DNA of 64,000 bases from Spiroplasma culicicola AES-1. Lineage in GTDB: Bacteria > Bacillota_I > Bacilli_A > Mycoplasmatales > Mycoplasmataceae. The stretch is from NCBI RefSeq assembly GCF_000565175.1, contig NZ_CP006681.1, positions 868,001 to 932,000 of the forward strand. Reading direction: 5' to 3'. Positions within the stretch are counted from its first letter, which is position 1; each line of letters opens with the position of its first letter. Under the pieces are notes generated by a model that saw only the letters and a program-made list of their open reading frames with translations, ran no database searches and was not told where the DNA came from. The position numbers were made by a program, and so were the translations under genes. Below are positions 29,642-37,838 of this stretch, piece after piece.

Positions 29642-29754
29642 ATTATAAATAGTTAATAATGAAAAAACTTTTTTTTGTGAATTAAATTTAATTAAAATAA
29701 GAAAAACCTATATTTTTCTTTATAATTATTTTGATAAATGAAAATTCAAGGAGT
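29642..29754. promoter_or_regulatory. Divergent promoter region between suf operon and lipoprotein genes
   Basis: A minus-strand TATAAT (29642-29647) lies before sufC and a plus-strand TATAAT (29721-29726) before the lipoprotein operon. Neither has a strong -35. An AAGGAG ribosome binding site (29749-29754) precedes the GTG start of the lipoprotein at 29762. Confidence 0.45.
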
Positions 29755-29761
29755 GAATAGT

Positions 29762-31957
29762 GTGAAAAAGTTAATAACACTACTAGGTAGTTTGTCTCTA
29801 ACAGCTAGTGCATCAACAATGGCAGTAGCTTGTGGAACAGATTATGATCAAAAAAAAGACGGGAACTCTATTTTAATCAAATTCTTGAACTCTTTAAATG
29901 GTACTGCAGAAATTGACGCGTCTGACGTGTTATGACAATTAATTAATACAGATGGTCCAGCTAACAGAAGTCAATTCTTATTAGAAATGCTTCAGTTATT
30001 TAATGTTTCACTATTAGCAAATAGTGAAACAAACTTTGCTGGTGAAGATAATATTTTAGATGAAGATAATGAATATGTTAATAAAGAACTAGGAAATAAC
30101 TTAATTAATAAATTCAAAGCTTTAAATACTGCAGTCGATTTACAAATTCAAAGAGAAAAAGATGATTATAAAAGAACAAACGGAAAAAAATGAGAGAAAA
30201 AATGAAAACAAATGCTTGTAGATAAGTATTCAGTTTACCAAGAAGACACAGACGATATGGATTACGCCTTCTTAGAAGCTAAATATAAAGCAGATATTTT
30301 GATGACAGATTCTACAAACAATGCAACAAAGGCAATTTTAGACGTATTGTTAAATACAGACAGCTATGGAGTTGTTTGAACTAAAAAAGAAGATGTAAGA
30401 AAGAAATATACAAATTTAAATAACGTAAAAAGTGATAATACAAAACTTATCCAAGCATATAATGCTGATAAATTAGCACTTGATCAAATTATTAACTCTA
30501 CAACAGATGAAGTTGATTCATGAGATAAAAAATATAACAATATTGATACTTCAGCAGAAAATGTAGAACAAGCTGCTAAAGAAATTAAAGATGCTTTAGC
30601 AACAATTACAAAATTGGAAGACATTGCAAATGATGTTCCAGAAGATATAACTCAATGATCTACTTTAGGTAGTGAATCAAGAGCAGGAATGTTAAGTAAA
30701 TCTCAATTATTTTTCTTAAACAAATATTTTCAAACAAATGCGCCATTAGCAATCAGTGAAATCGTTGTTTCATTTTCAGATAATGGTAAATTTGATGATG
30801 GAATAAGTATTGAAGATTTTAAAGGTGATCAAAGTATTGATGCGAAGGCTTTAATAAAACTTTATAATACTATTTCTTCAGATACATCAGGATGATGAAC
30901 AACAGCTTTAATAGATTCTTCATTAGCTACAGGTCTTGCACCAAAAGCAACTGTTAAAAAATATGATAACCTTTTAACACTTTCATCTAGTTCAGAAACA
31001 TTTTCTGATACATTAAAAACTGTTGTTTATGACCATGTATTAGGTACAGAGACAGGAAATAGTATTGAATTAGCTAAAGATTTAAATGATGAAACAGCGT
31101 TAGAAACAGTAATTACTAATCTTAATAGAGCAGCAACTAATACAACTGCTTTCTATGGTACATTAGGCGAAAATAAACTTGTTTATATTGATACTGATGG
31201 AATGCATTTTGTTTCTCTTGATGGTTATAGTAAATTTAACACAACACGAAGTGAAACTGATGAAACAACAACTGATAGTGATACTCTTAAACAATTAAAA
31301 TTATTCAATGAATTTCACTCTTTAACAGATAGACAAAAAGTTATTAAATTAATGACTGATTCAAGTAGTACTTATATGACTGACTTAAATAGTTCAATTA
31401 ATAATGAGTATTTACAATATCTTGTAAATACTTCACTTTTAAAAGGTATTTCAAGTAGTCCAGTTAACTATGATATTATGAGTGAAGTTAAAAGTTGAGC
31501 AACAGTTTCAAGTTCTACAGAATCACAAACTTATTGAACAACAACAGTATTTGATTACTTTAAAACTACAACAAATTTAACTAAAAACAACGAATTATTA
31601 TCTCAGTTTATCATTTTTGGTGAAGGTGAAGAAGCACATAATCCAAATGGAGAAGAAATTGCTATTGCAATGCAAGGATGAACAGTTAATGCAATTGGAT
31701 CATCACAAGAAAATACTGAAGATAACCCTTCTATTCTATTTGTTGAAAATCATAAAAATTGAAAAGAAACAATTGAAAAAAATACTACATTAAATTATCC
31801 AATAAAAACAATGACAAATACTAAATTTAATGCAGATACTCTTTCAGGTACAATTAGTGAAAAGTGAAATCCAAATTCCACTTTAATTAAATATGATTTA
31901 AGAAATAGTATGAGTTATACTTCATACTTGTTTAATACATTAGGAGGTGAATTGTAA
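29762..31957 (+). CDS. Large lipoprotein 1 (731 aa)
   Basis: The N-terminus MKKLITLLGSLSLTASASTM ends in AVAC, a lipobox with the lipidated Cys at about residue 24. The start is GTG with AAGGAG upstream; an ATG at 29738 would put the signal peptide behind eight extra residues. The mature part is long, acidic, Ser/Thr/Asn-rich and without recognised domains. Trp is frequently UGA. It should sit on the outer face of the cell membrane. It is coupled (TAATG) to a second lipoprotein with a similar signal peptide. Function unknown. Confidence 0.8.
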
Positions 31958-33684
31958 TGAAAAAACTACTTAGTTTATTAGGTTCAGTTTCTCTTCTTAC
32001 AACTGCTGGAAATGCTGTTGTTGCATGTACAAATGACAGAATTACAAGTCCTAAATTAGATCCTGATTTAGCAAAACAAATTATTGCAAAATTAGCTGGA
32101 ACTGATGTGGCAAGTATTGATTTTGGTGATTTATTTTCAAGTGCTGATGTTACAACAGTTGTTGTAAATATTATTAATGACTTAATATCAAAACAATATA
32201 GTTATGATTCAACAAATAAGTTATTATCTCAATTAGGGCTTAACCAATATGCAAAACCTGGAGAATCTAATCTATTACCTGAAGATTTCTTAAATTTCTT
32301 TAATCAAAATGCTTCTACTATTGCAGAAGATATACTATTTACAGAATATACAAAATCAATTTCTTCTGGTATTAGAATGGACTTTACACAAGCAAATTCT
32401 TTATATGCTTTAAATCCAATAAGAGAAACTACTGTTAAATCATTTGATGGTGAAAGCGATATTAAAGTAAATATTCAAGATAAAATTTGATTCAATGGTA
32501 AGATCTGAGCTAAAGGTTCAGAAAGTGTTGATGGAAATAAAGAACTACCAAAATTAGAAGATTTAACTGAAGAATATGCTTCTAAAAAAGCAATTTTTAA
32601 AATTGGTGCCACTGAAAGTAGCGCAAATGAAATAACTGCAAAAACTGCTTTAAAATTAAGATTCCAAGATTATTTTGAAAATAAATTAATGAAAGATATT
32701 ATTTCTAACTTACTTACAACTTCATTTATTGAAGCAAATATGTTCAATATTTCTTCACAAGCTGGAGAAAATTCAAATAAAAATGGGGCATATTTAAATA
32801 TTTCTAATACATTATTTTCAAAAACTCAAAGTTGAAATACATCTTCAACTGCAGATTGAAAAACAAATGTAAAAATGGTTTGAAGTTATAAAATTGATAA
32901 TACAGATCAAAAAGCAGCAGCACAAATTAAAACAGCTTTTAATGCTTTAAATAGTTTTATTGATACTTCTACAGGTGAACTAAAAGACGACACTTCATTA
33001 TTTAAATTAATGGAAGATTTTAAAACTAATTTAGGAAGCGAAACACCTATTTATAATGGTGATGGTTCAAATGCTTATGATTCTTTCTTTGGAAAAGAAG
33101 GATTTAAAGGAATAACTATCTATGAAAATGGTGTTAGCATTGGAACTAGTCCAATTGCAAATAAGGCATATGAAGATGCAGTTAAAACTTCAACTAAAGC
33201 TGGAATATTATTAAATAGTAATACACTTCCATTCTTTAATGATACAGATAACTCAAACATTGCAGAAGTTGTATTTGTGTTACCAATTTACATGATTGAA
33301 TTATTGGGTGCAAGTATTGGTAGTGAAAATGATGTTTACAAAATTAATGGAGCCCCTTCTTCAACAATTGATGAAGAAGAAAATTCAGTTGCTATTAATT
33401 TTGGTCCAACATCTCAAAGTTCTACAAGATATAGTGATGTTTGAAATAATTTAAATAACATGAAATATCATTCAACTGATGTAAGAACTATTGCAAGTAA
33501 TGAGGCAAATAGACAAGCTATGATAAACCAAATAAAATATGTGGTTTCTCAAGATACTTCAGTTTCAGATCTTGCAAAAACAGTATTGTATTCACAATAC
33601 TTAGATGTAGATGAAATCTATTATGCAGGTTTATTTGACCAAATTGGTAGATACATTAAATCGGATGAAGACGAAGATGATTAA
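31957..33684 (+). CDS. Large lipoprotein 2 (575 aa)
   Basis: The signal peptide MKKLLSLLGSVSLLTTAGNA ends in VVAC, closely resembling that of the preceding lipoprotein. The mature region is Ser/Asn/Asp-rich and ends in an acidic run (SDEDEDD). No known domain is visible. The ATG overlaps the previous stop, and a strong terminator follows, giving a two-gene operon. UGA codons are read as Trp. The pair probably arose by duplication and divergence or acts as a unit at the surface. Confidence 0.8.
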
Positions 33685-34158: not shown

Positions 34159-34186
34159 AAAACTCAATTTAAAATTGAGTTTTTTA
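34156..34186. terminator. Convergent terminator between HIT gene and yhaM
   Basis: AAAAAACTCAATTT and its complement form a hairpin with T on both strands between two converging genes; it overlaps the end of yhaM. Confidence 0.82.
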
Positions 34187-35149
34187 TTTATTAAAATGTT
34201 TTAAAAAGCTTTTACCCTCTTCTGTAAAGATTTTTGAAGTTCACCCTTCACCCTTTACTTTAGATAATTCATCATTGATTTTATAAATTCGTGCATCAAG
34301 TGCATCTAATGAAGAGACAATTACTCCTTCGATCATAATTGGTTCAATTGGTGAACCAAATTCATTTTTACCATGACTTGATAAAATAATATGTTGTAAT
34401 TTAACAGCTTCATTTCTTTGTTCTTCATTTAATTTTAATTGCTCAATTAAGCTTGCAATAAAAGTATTTCCAATTGAAATGTGACCCAATAGTTTACCTT
34501 CATCAGTATATTCTGTTGCAGTTTTACCCTTCATTTCAATTACTTTTCCAATATCATGTAATGTAGCTCCACAATAGATCAATTCTCAATCAATATCTGC
34601 ATAATTGTAAACTTCTTTTAAACCCATTGCTCCTTTTACAAGAGAATAACTATGTCAAATTAATCCCCCAATTAAGTTATGGTGAATTGAAGTTGCAGCT
34701 GGATAAGTTTTAAATTCTTCTTCATATTTTTGCAAGATTGTTTTTGTAATTTTTTGATAAACTCCATTTTGTAAACCATCAATTAAAGTTATCAATTCAT
34801 CATAAATTTTATCAACATCAATTGGAGCACTTATTGCAAACTCTTCTGCTAAAATTCCAAATGTAGAGTAATCTTTTTCTTCTATTATTTGATAGTGATT
34901 AATTTTTAATTGCAATTGTTGGCGATATAAATTAACGTTTGCATCAATTTTAATGAGACTATCCACTTTAATTGTTTGTACATCCTTTTCATCTGCATTT
35001 CATAATCTTGCTTCGATTCTTCCGGTTTTATCCACTAAATTGACAATTAAATAATTTGAACCATTATTACCTGTTGATAAAATGACTCTTTCAACACGAG
35101 CAACAAGTTCTAAAGATTTGATTTCACTATTTATTTCAAAAATTTTCAT
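34184..35149 (-). CDS. yhaM: 3'-5' exoribonuclease YhaM-like
   Basis: YhaM degrades RNA from the 3' end and consists of an N-terminal OB-fold and a metal-dependent HD domain. The 321-residue product shows both: an OB region at about 13-90 and HHNLIGGLIWHS plus CGATLHDIGKV, the HD pair. Length and order match Firmicute YhaM. Trp in the HD region is encoded by UGA. The gene stands alone between a convergent terminator and the E2-like gene. Confidence 0.9.
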
Positions 35150-35210
35150 AAAATATTTCCTTTTCAATAAAATTATTTTATCAAAAAAGCACTTATGAAT
35201 TAAGTGCTTT

Positions 35211-37040
35211 TTAAATTAATAATCCTGGGTTTTGAATTATGTCATTAAATTCTTTTGTAAATTCAATTGCATCTTTAATATCAATTAAAGTAGTATCAAA
35301 GTTTACACAAACATTAACATAATTTGATAATATCATTTCACCTTTTAATTTTGAATGAACTGCACCAACTGATAATGAAATAATTGATGATTCATCTAAT
35401 TGGATTGATGAAGATAAGACATTAAATTGAGATAAATCAATTAACATAATGTTTTTTGCACTTTCAATTTCTTGATTTGTATCAACTTGTTTTGCTATAT
35501 CAATGATTGAAGTTGAATTTTCAACAACAATATCAACAAAACCAAATTTATTGCCAATACTTCTTGCAAGTGAAATAGTTGAATTATTATTATAATCAAA
35601 TTCATCAAATTTATTTAATACCATTTTTAATGCTTTTAAATAAAAAGTATTTAAATTTAATTCAACCCCTTTTGCTTTATAAGGATCAAACATTAAAGTA
35701 TGTAAATGTAGTAATGCTGTTACATCAACTTCAAAGTTAATTGAACTTGTTTGTTTTGAAGTAATATTTACATTTGCTGGATCAATTTTATTAAATTTCA
35801 TTTCTGAAAGTTTTTTATTTAATTGATCATGTTTTTCTTCTAATTGAGCTAATTGTGATTTAATTGAAGAATCATCATATTCTTGATTGATAACTTTAAT
35901 TTCTTCAACTGTTTTTTGCTCAACATCAGAAGGTTTTTCTTCTGTTTGTTCTGGTTCAACTTCAAGAGAATCAATAACAACATCTTCAAGAGATATTAAA
36001 TCTTCATTTTCATCACTTGCAAATTTTGATAGAAATTGAGATTCATTAACTGTTTTTAAAATTTGTGTTTCTCTAATTTCAGGATTATGATTTTCAAAAA
36101 TCTTGATATCTTTTTCATCTTCTAATTTTAGGGCTTTTAAGTTAGTCAATTCTTGAGTAATTGAATCACTTACAGTAATTGGTTGAGGATATTCATGTTC
36201 ATTTTCAATCGGACTTGATTGTGGTTTTGCAAATACATTTAATTCTTCAAAGTTTAAATGAGCATTATTTTGTTCTAAAGTTTCAACTGATTGAGAAGAA
36301 GTTGTAGCTTCATTTAACTGAATATCAAAATCTTTTGCCATTTCTTTAATTGAAACTTCTTTATCAACTTCGTGAGCACCTTCAGCAGTTAGATGACTTA
36401 ATAATTCAAGTTCTTTTGTAACACTATCATCTGAACTAATAGCGTTTGCACCTCTTTGTTCTCATAAATCATCATGGTGATCACTTATTTTTTCACTTCT
36501 TTCAATTGATTGTTGACCAATACTTGTAGGCATTTGGTTACTAAAATCAATTGTTTTAGTTGTGGTTTGTACAATTTCTTCTTCTACTTTAATTTCTTCA
36601 ACTGGATGTTCAGCTTCAACTGATTGTTTTTCATTTTGAGATAAAAATTCTGGTTTAATATCTGTATTTAAATCAAAATCATCAGCTGGTTCAAAACTTA
36701 TAGTTTCACCGTTTTCATCATTTAATGATTCTAAAAAACCATTTTCAGTCAATGCTTCTCTTAAAGTATCTCCAATATTTTGAGGTTTTTTTAAGACACC
36801 TGCTAATTCTTTTTGATTCATAACATCAAAAATTACATCTCCATGTGAAACAATTAATGATTCAATGATGTAAATATTGCGAATAACTCCTTCAATTGGA
36901 GATTCAATTTTAAATCTTTCTAATTGTGTTGAAATTTGGGCAAGAACTTGTCCTTGCTCTACTGCTTGTCCATCTTTAACAAACACTTTTTCAACAATAC
37001 CCTTATATTTTCTGGGATTTTTAAATTTTATTTTTTCCAT
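35211..37040 (-). CDS. Degenerate dihydrolipoamide acyltransferase (E2)-like protein
   Basis: The 609-residue protein is built like an E2 subunit of 2-oxoacid dehydrogenases. Residues 10-75 form a lipoyl-like domain (EKVFVKDGQAVEQGQVLAQI, then IESPIEGVIRNI), followed by a 300-residue acidic linker and a C-terminal acyltransferase-like domain from about 395 (INFEVDVTALLHL, then NLNTFYLKALKMVL). The two key features are lost: the lipoylated Lys position before IESP is occupied by Leu/Glu, and the active-site DHRxxDG is FDTTLIDIK. It is therefore probably not a working acyltransferase but may be structural. There are no E1 or E3 genes nearby. One UGA is read as Trp. Confidence 0.7.
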
Positions 37041-37130: not shown

Positions 37131-37838
37131 TTATTTATACTTAAAAGCATGTGCTTCTACTCATAAACTTGAACTTTCTTCTCATGATTTAGCAACTCTT
37201 TTAAAATTAAACAATTTTGGTCATTCTGTATAATCTAAATTTTCAGTATCATTTTTTAGTTTTTCAATTACTTCAAATAATTCTCAAAATTCATATTCTT
37301 CTATAAATAAAACTGGTCCAAATCCTTTAAAAATAAACATTGCTTGAATTAAAAATCAAATATAATCAAGTGAAAGCTCATCTAATGGCATTAACTTTAA
37401 ATAATCAACATACGCATATAGTAAATATTCACATAATGTACATAAATCATCATATGAATACATTCTTACTCATATGTATTCAAGAATTTCATAGAATTTT
37501 TTTGATTTTTCAGTTTTAAATTCAAATACGTCTAACTTTTGGCCGCTTGGATCAAAAGCAAGATAAATATTTTTTAAATCCTCAATATTAATTAATTTAT
37601 CTTCTGTTTCTTTTTTATTAACCCCTTTAGTCACAAGTGCTCTAACGAGATCTAAAGCTTTTGCTGTATTTATTAAGATATCTTCATATGTATTTTTAGC
37701 ATCTTCATCTAAATAGTCTTTTTCTTCTACGAAATCTGCAATTTCATCTGAAGAAATATTAATTTTTTTAAACAGAACCATAGTATTTATATAATCTATA
37801 TAGAAATCTGTTCAAAATTGTTCCTTTTCATATAACAT
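37131..37838 (-). CDS. Hypothetical acidic protein (235 aa)
   Basis: I do not recognise this protein. The sequence is acidic, soluble and rich in aromatic residues in its C-terminal half, without signal peptide or clear membrane segment. Trp is mostly UGA, seven or more times. The ATG at 37838 follows TAGGTGA. It starts 8 nt after the trmFO stop, so it is probably the last gene of a metK-cutC-trmFO transcript. Confidence 0.6.

Follow-up and report, generated by a model that had tools for sequence, protein, structure and literature searches.

The cores of dihydrolipoyl acyltransferases (E2), such as the E2 of pyruvate dehydrogenase (PDH), are self-assembling protein cages. In E2, trimers are joined into the cage by a knob-into-hole contact, for which the short C-terminal helix supplies the knob (PMC8421416). 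E2 paralogs that are catalytically dead are already known in eukaryotes, in which the E3BP (or protein X) of PDH is E2-derived, has an inactive core domain and coexists with an active E2 (PMC8626477). In the open-licence literature that was searched, no description was found of a dead E2 in Spiroplasma, nor of the two families, P1 and P2, that are presented here. P1 is encoded in a stretch of 64,000 nucleotides (hereafter the window) of Spiroplasma culicicola AES-1 (contig NZ_CP006681.1, positions 868,001 to 932,000) and is, as read from its aligned motif columns, a pseudoenzyme that has lost its catalytic parts. Since these parts are lost and P1 is nevertheless kept across helical Spiroplasma, it is probably no enzyme but a building block, and we favour, with moderate confidence, the view that it is a conserved E2-derived pseudoenzyme working as a non-catalytic oligomeric scaffold.

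P1 shares with PDH E2, be it PDB chain 3duf_I or the E2 of its own genome (G000:C1:1088364-1089044), a lipoyl-type head, a long linker, an acyltransferase (CAT) domain and a hydrophobic C-terminal knob sequence. Unlike P1, however, the genome's own E2 has the lipoyl lysine, an E3-binding domain and the catalytic motif (which reads DHKxxDG) all present. The likeness to E3BP lies in an E2-like core with a lost catalytic residue, but P1 has neither a lipoylatable lipoyl site nor an E3-binding domain, and it is not distributed in step with PDH. It fits the defining features of neither E3BP nor E2.

A preliminary description of P1, made from its sequence, had read it as an intact and long gene in which a lipoyl domain, a linker and an acyltransferase domain follow one another, with the lipoyl lysine replaced and the His, Arg and Gly of DHRxxDG absent, and had proposed a pseudoenzyme, all of which has held up. 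The gene is a single open frame under the Mollicute code 4 (TGA = W), and its motif losses are common to all homologs, so that neither sequencing error nor decay is their cause. A reading as two genes (376 and 192 aa under table 11) was rejected, as TGA = Trp is needed across the rest of the window. The N-terminal domain is matched by the Pfam biotin/lipoyl family PF00364 at residues 14-72 (E 2.6e-8), and is the best conserved part of P1 within the genus (~50-68% identity in most members). A biotin carrier protein, also covered by PF00364, was rejected as well, there being no Lys at the attachment column. At the C-terminus, the match of P1 itself to PF00198 is just below the 23-bit cut-off (22.6 bits, E 8.3e-5), but less diverged homologs are matched in 11 of 18 members (best E 5.9e-44), and a profile of these 18 members finds 3duf_I in two stretches that span both domains (E 8.6e-25), together with many further E2 cores in PDB, which settles the C-terminal E2 homology. 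The g18 members (genera of the family are given as codes), which have diverged less, bridge P1 to canonical E2, and on this homology P1 is a descendant of a dihydrolipoyl acyltransferase. Neither single-sequence nor profile search found a relative in the genome_contigs collection.

The motif columns were read by realigning P1 through less diverged intermediates, in 39 P1 sequences. The column of the lipoyl lysine, occupied by Leu40 in P1, holds K in none of the 39 homologs (L, N, V, S, M, R, G, Q or F are found instead) versus 10/10 canonical E2 N-domains, and some g18 members have a Lys one residue past the lipoyl site (ITQNK). The former DHRxxDG motif reads DTTLIDI, in which the first and second Asp are kept and His, Arg and Gly are lost. 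His is absent from the catalytic column of all 39 homologs (E, Q, N, S and others are present), versus 15/15 canonical E2s with H. The E3-binding domain PF02817 was found neither in P1 nor in the scanned members, in a search for which two canonical Spiroplasma E2s were positive controls (1e-12 to 1e-15). The losses are therefore family-wide and, combined with homology and selection, they strongly support the proposal of a pseudoenzyme.

Selection was measured as dN/dS by the Nei-Gojobori method on resolved pairs within PDH-bearing genera, g18 pairs with dS < 0.1 being too short to resolve. Both folded domains of P1 are under purifying selection, the CAT-like domain having values of 0.015-0.23 and the N-domain of 0.03-0.24 (0.30 in one g18 pair), and the linker has 0.17-0.55. 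Within the genus, the entropy of the former DHRxxDG segment is 1.94 bits versus a CAT domain mean of 1.79, and that of the C-terminal hexamer is 0.28 bits. This hexamer, the equivalent of the E2 knob, follows the pattern NPG[LFY][LI][IL] and stands at the very end of 36 of the 39 homologs. With a variable active-site segment next to a conserved C-terminal hexamer, constraint has shifted away from catalysis and onto the assembly tail, which may still act as an E2 knob. Two alternatives are touched by these data. That P1 is a decaying, functionless relic of an E2 duplication is highly improbable: its fast linker, degradation in one genome (G174) and relaxed dN/dS in PDH-less genomes could be taken that way, but 39 genomes, from six genus codes, have P1 at full length, its N- and C-terminal residues include invariant ones, and the low dN/dS of both folded domains in g1, g17 and PDH-bearing g18 contradicts decay. 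That P1 and P2 are instead ligand sensors, with a CAT pocket that would still bind CoA or an acyl group, the signal being passed on by the linker and head, is something we regard as very unlikely, since the active-site segment of P1 is among the less conserved CAT parts within the genus and the 'TFTITNFG' strand of its CAT domain has been replaced, even though P2, with changes of His to Gln, Gly to Ala and Ser/Thr to Ala, keeps most of the CAT sequence.

P2, encoded outside the window in the same genome, is a second E2-like pseudoenzyme. Its motif reads DQRILDA (DQRxxDA), the Ser/Thr to Ala change lies in the 'TFTITNFG' strand, and its CAT domain looks intact (PF00198, E 4.7e-63). The possibility that this second E2 of the genome is an active acetoin-type E2 was rejected on the basis of the DQRILDA motif. 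The catalytic His is absent in 12/12 P2 orthologs checked, and most members lack the attachment Lys in their lipoyl-like head, one g17 member having a Lys at or near the site (ETNKG). The linker is very long and carries twin motifs, FRxLIxARxxxL and MRNIIxxRxxxL (18 found versus 0.005 expected). Orthologs occur in g1, g6, g17, g18, g20, g21 and g22. P1 and P2 thus have in common a lipoyl-like head, a long linker, a dead CAT domain and confinement to those genomes of the family that bear fib and MreB, but P2 differs in a much better conserved CAT domain, in its linker motifs and in its presence in g21. In a maximum-likelihood tree the P1 and P2 clades join outside the canonical E2s (94/97), which would fit a single early loss of catalysis and a later duplication into P1 and P2. 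Both are long branches, however, which makes their joining insecure.

Owing to a survey of 60 genomes of the family, the distribution of both proteins can be set against that of fibril, scored as conserved (at least 66% identity) or diverged (35-45%), of MreB and of PDH. P1 homologs are present in g1 (20/20), g17 (3/3) and g18 (14/14, one degraded), as well as in g22, g6 and g20. Conserved fibril is found in 40 genomes, all of which have P1 (39 intact, one degraded) and all of which have P2, and the 18 genomes with no fibril have neither, the yhaM flanks having also been checked by synteny. Strong MreB matches (E < 1e-100) are distributed as fibril in the sampled genomes, and the fib-negative genera have only weaker family matches. 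The genome of P1 itself (1.175 Mb, one contig) has seven MreB-family matches and a 511-aa protein taken as the fibril because of its nucleosidase-like N-terminal half and a length as reported for fibril, and would by this gene content be of the helical type. PDH behaves differently. Among the fib-negative genera, g4 alone has neither E1-alpha nor a canonical E2, both being retained in g2, g3, g5 and g19, whereas within g18 E1-alpha is missing in G125, G150, G174 and G195 and a fragment in G189, and in the same five genomes the canonical E2 is missing or, in G195, interrupted by stops. All five have P2, and P1 is full-length in G125, G150, G189 and G195. In these 60 genomes, P1 and P2 follow helical-cell genes (conserved fibril and many MreBs), not PDH. 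The earlier suggestion that the protein binds pyruvate dehydrogenase is therefore unsupported by this profile, since PDH-bearing non-helical relatives are without P1 and several PDH-less Spiroplasma keep it.

Two side observations concern the same genomes. In the g21 genomes G192 and G161, fibril identity is 45% and 35%, P1 is absent and P2 is shortened and without its lipoyl-like head, so that all three have changed together. In G125 and G189 (loci L094 and L093), a truncated lplA-pdh region or remnants of the pdh operon adjoin apparent mobile-element genes, which makes the loss of PDH in those g18 genomes look recent.

As for the mechanism, P1 working as a scaffold would imply that (i) its CAT-like domains assemble as in E2 (into trimers, possibly a cage) via the C-terminal knob, alone or with P2, (ii) a binding surface is presented in many copies by the long acidic, motif-bearing linkers together with the lipoyl-like head and, least certain of all, (iii) the partner belongs to the architecture or upkeep of the helical cell, not to pyruvate dehydrogenase. 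The idea of a cage for another purpose, also present in the preliminary description, gains indirect backing from a knob that is kept while the active site varies, the cage itself being conjectural. A stronger form, in which P1 and P2 would together build a hetero-oligomeric assembly of the E2 type (a cage or a trimer lattice), taken over from metabolism as a PDH-independent structural element of the helical cell (sited for example at a polar core or along the fibril/MreB ribbon), we consider rather unlikely. If the lineage does keep two catalysis-stripped proteins derived from E2, this would clearly exemplify the recruitment of a metabolic cage as a scaffold. Since both occur in Spiroplasma that bear fibril and MreB and are missing in non-helical relatives, P1 and P2 are two concrete candidates for parts of the Spiroplasma cell, whose list of components is still incompletely known. 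There is also a caution for annotation, as Spiroplasma genes named "dihydrolipoamide acetyltransferase" may comprise, in addition to the real E2, two paralogs that are dead.

Several points weigh against a scaffold tied to the helical cell. Among PDH-less genomes the dN/dS of P1 is 0.5-0.9 versus 0.19 in the PDH-bearing pair G122/G198, and the gene is degraded in G174, which is one of the PDH-less genomes. In the same comparison other genes give 0.35-0.82 versus 0.20 (P2), 0.09-0.72 versus 0.06 (yhaM) and 0.16-0.32 versus 0.15 (fib), and the shortest PDH-less branches show raised values for yhaM and P2 as well, so some relaxation is likely, strongest in P1. The persistence of P1 without PDH is therefore weaker evidence for independence from PDH. 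It is here that the main alternative comes in, according to which P1 serves the PDH E2 core of Spiroplasma as a structural subunit without catalysis, in an E3BP-like role, dead E2-type subunits being inserted into the E2 cage and changing its size or partners. Such a role would suit an E2 paralog with a conserved knob, the relaxation after recent PDH loss, the degraded copy and the gene order P1 - yhaM - NADH oxidase-like - lplA - pdhABCD seen in several g18 genomes. It sits badly with a protein that has neither lipoyl Lys nor E3-binding domain, that is missing from PDH-bearing sister genera and from g21, that four near-complete PDH-less genomes retain at full length and whose gene is far from PDH genes in G122 and in the window's genome, and we hold it to be unlikely. 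The remaining points concern the scaffold itself. The two genomes with a diverged fibril (g21) have P2 in both and P1 in neither, and thus retain fib and MreB without P1. The non-helical, fib-negative genera share one ancestor within Spiroplasma (PMC11567158), so that as few as one or two losses may underlie the distribution profile, and P1, P2 and fib may have been lost together in a single event, along with many other genes. A proteomic list for the internal structure of S. eriocheiris names no E2-like protein (PMC5289999), and, in another report, pairs of MreBs were enough to make a minimal cell swim (PMC9710875). Since single-sequence AlphaFold was uninformative (pLDDT 30 for the CAT-like and 50 for the N-terminal domain), we infer the oligomer from sequence.

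The linker is acidic, with 75 D+E versus 25 K+R in residues 106-409, and its short motif occurs 20 times in 20 linkers of the genus versus 0.5 expected (at most 3 in 200 shuffles). The pattern was picked after the sequences had been viewed, and related sequences share motifs by descent, which makes it a lead rather than a test. The coordinates of all these features are collected in the table.

Table. Features of P1 and its surroundings in the window, with P2 from elsewhere in the genome
Feature	Position	Strand	Remark
P1 gene (E2-like pseudoenzyme)	35211..37040	(-)	609 aa, code 4; full-length homologs elsewhere
In-frame TGA = Trp193	36462..36464	(-)	breaks frame under table 11
Lipoyl-like (barrel-sandwich hybrid) domain, residues 1-76	36813..37040	(-)	PF00364
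Lost lipoyl-attachment Lys = Leu40	36921..36923	(-)	STQLE replaces ETDKV (TDK to TQL)
Acidic low-conservation linker, residues 77-424	35769..36812	(-)	no E3-binding domain found
Short linear motif DSVTKEL, residues 205-211	36408..36428	(-)	pattern [SD].[ILVF]T.[ED][ILM]
Second motif copy DSITQEL, residues 292-298	36147..36167	(-)	same pattern
E2 acyltransferase-type (CAT) domain, residues 425-609, inactive	35214..35768	(-)	family profile vs PDB E2s; PF00198
Former DHRxxDG active-site motif, residues 582-588	35277..35297	(-)	by realignment
C-terminal NPGLLI, equivalent of E2 trimer-trimer knob	35214..35231	(-)	36/39 homologs
yhaM-type OB-fold + HD 3'-5' exoribonuclease gene	34184..35167	(-)	43 bp downstream of P1
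P2 gene, 914 aa	G000:C1:1009620-1012361 (locus L150:8618-11362)	(-)	outside window

P1 lies directly upstream of yhaM on the same strand, at 9-115 bp with few exceptions, in g1 (19/20), g6, g17, g20, g22 and nearly all g18, in which the pair survives where surrounding genes differ, and the two genes likely form an operon. This would suit P1 as a partner or scaffold of the YhaM exoribonuclease, acting in RNA turnover. We find this quite unlikely, because yhaM is universal in the sampled genomes of the family, including those without P1, which means that YhaM does not need P1, and because the two genes are ~8 kb apart in G018 and ~1.3 kb apart in G150.

On the other side of P1, a 235-aa protein with no Pfam match (37131-37838(-) in the window) is encoded directly upstream in many g1 genomes. 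It is very weakly conserved (~20-35%) and was not detected in g17 or g18 loci. In several genera of the family, two large lipoprotein-like genes of 739 and 575 aa (29738-33684(+) in the window), also with no Pfam match, are kept beside the HIT gene. In the pdh operon of G000 (L053:5460-7340(-) and L053:7359-8687(-)), the gene for E3 (dihydrolipoamide dehydrogenase) starts with a lipoyl domain, which the E3 of G201 does not have, and this domain and the adjacent E2 have identical first residues (75 printed), which suggests recent gene conversion or duplication.
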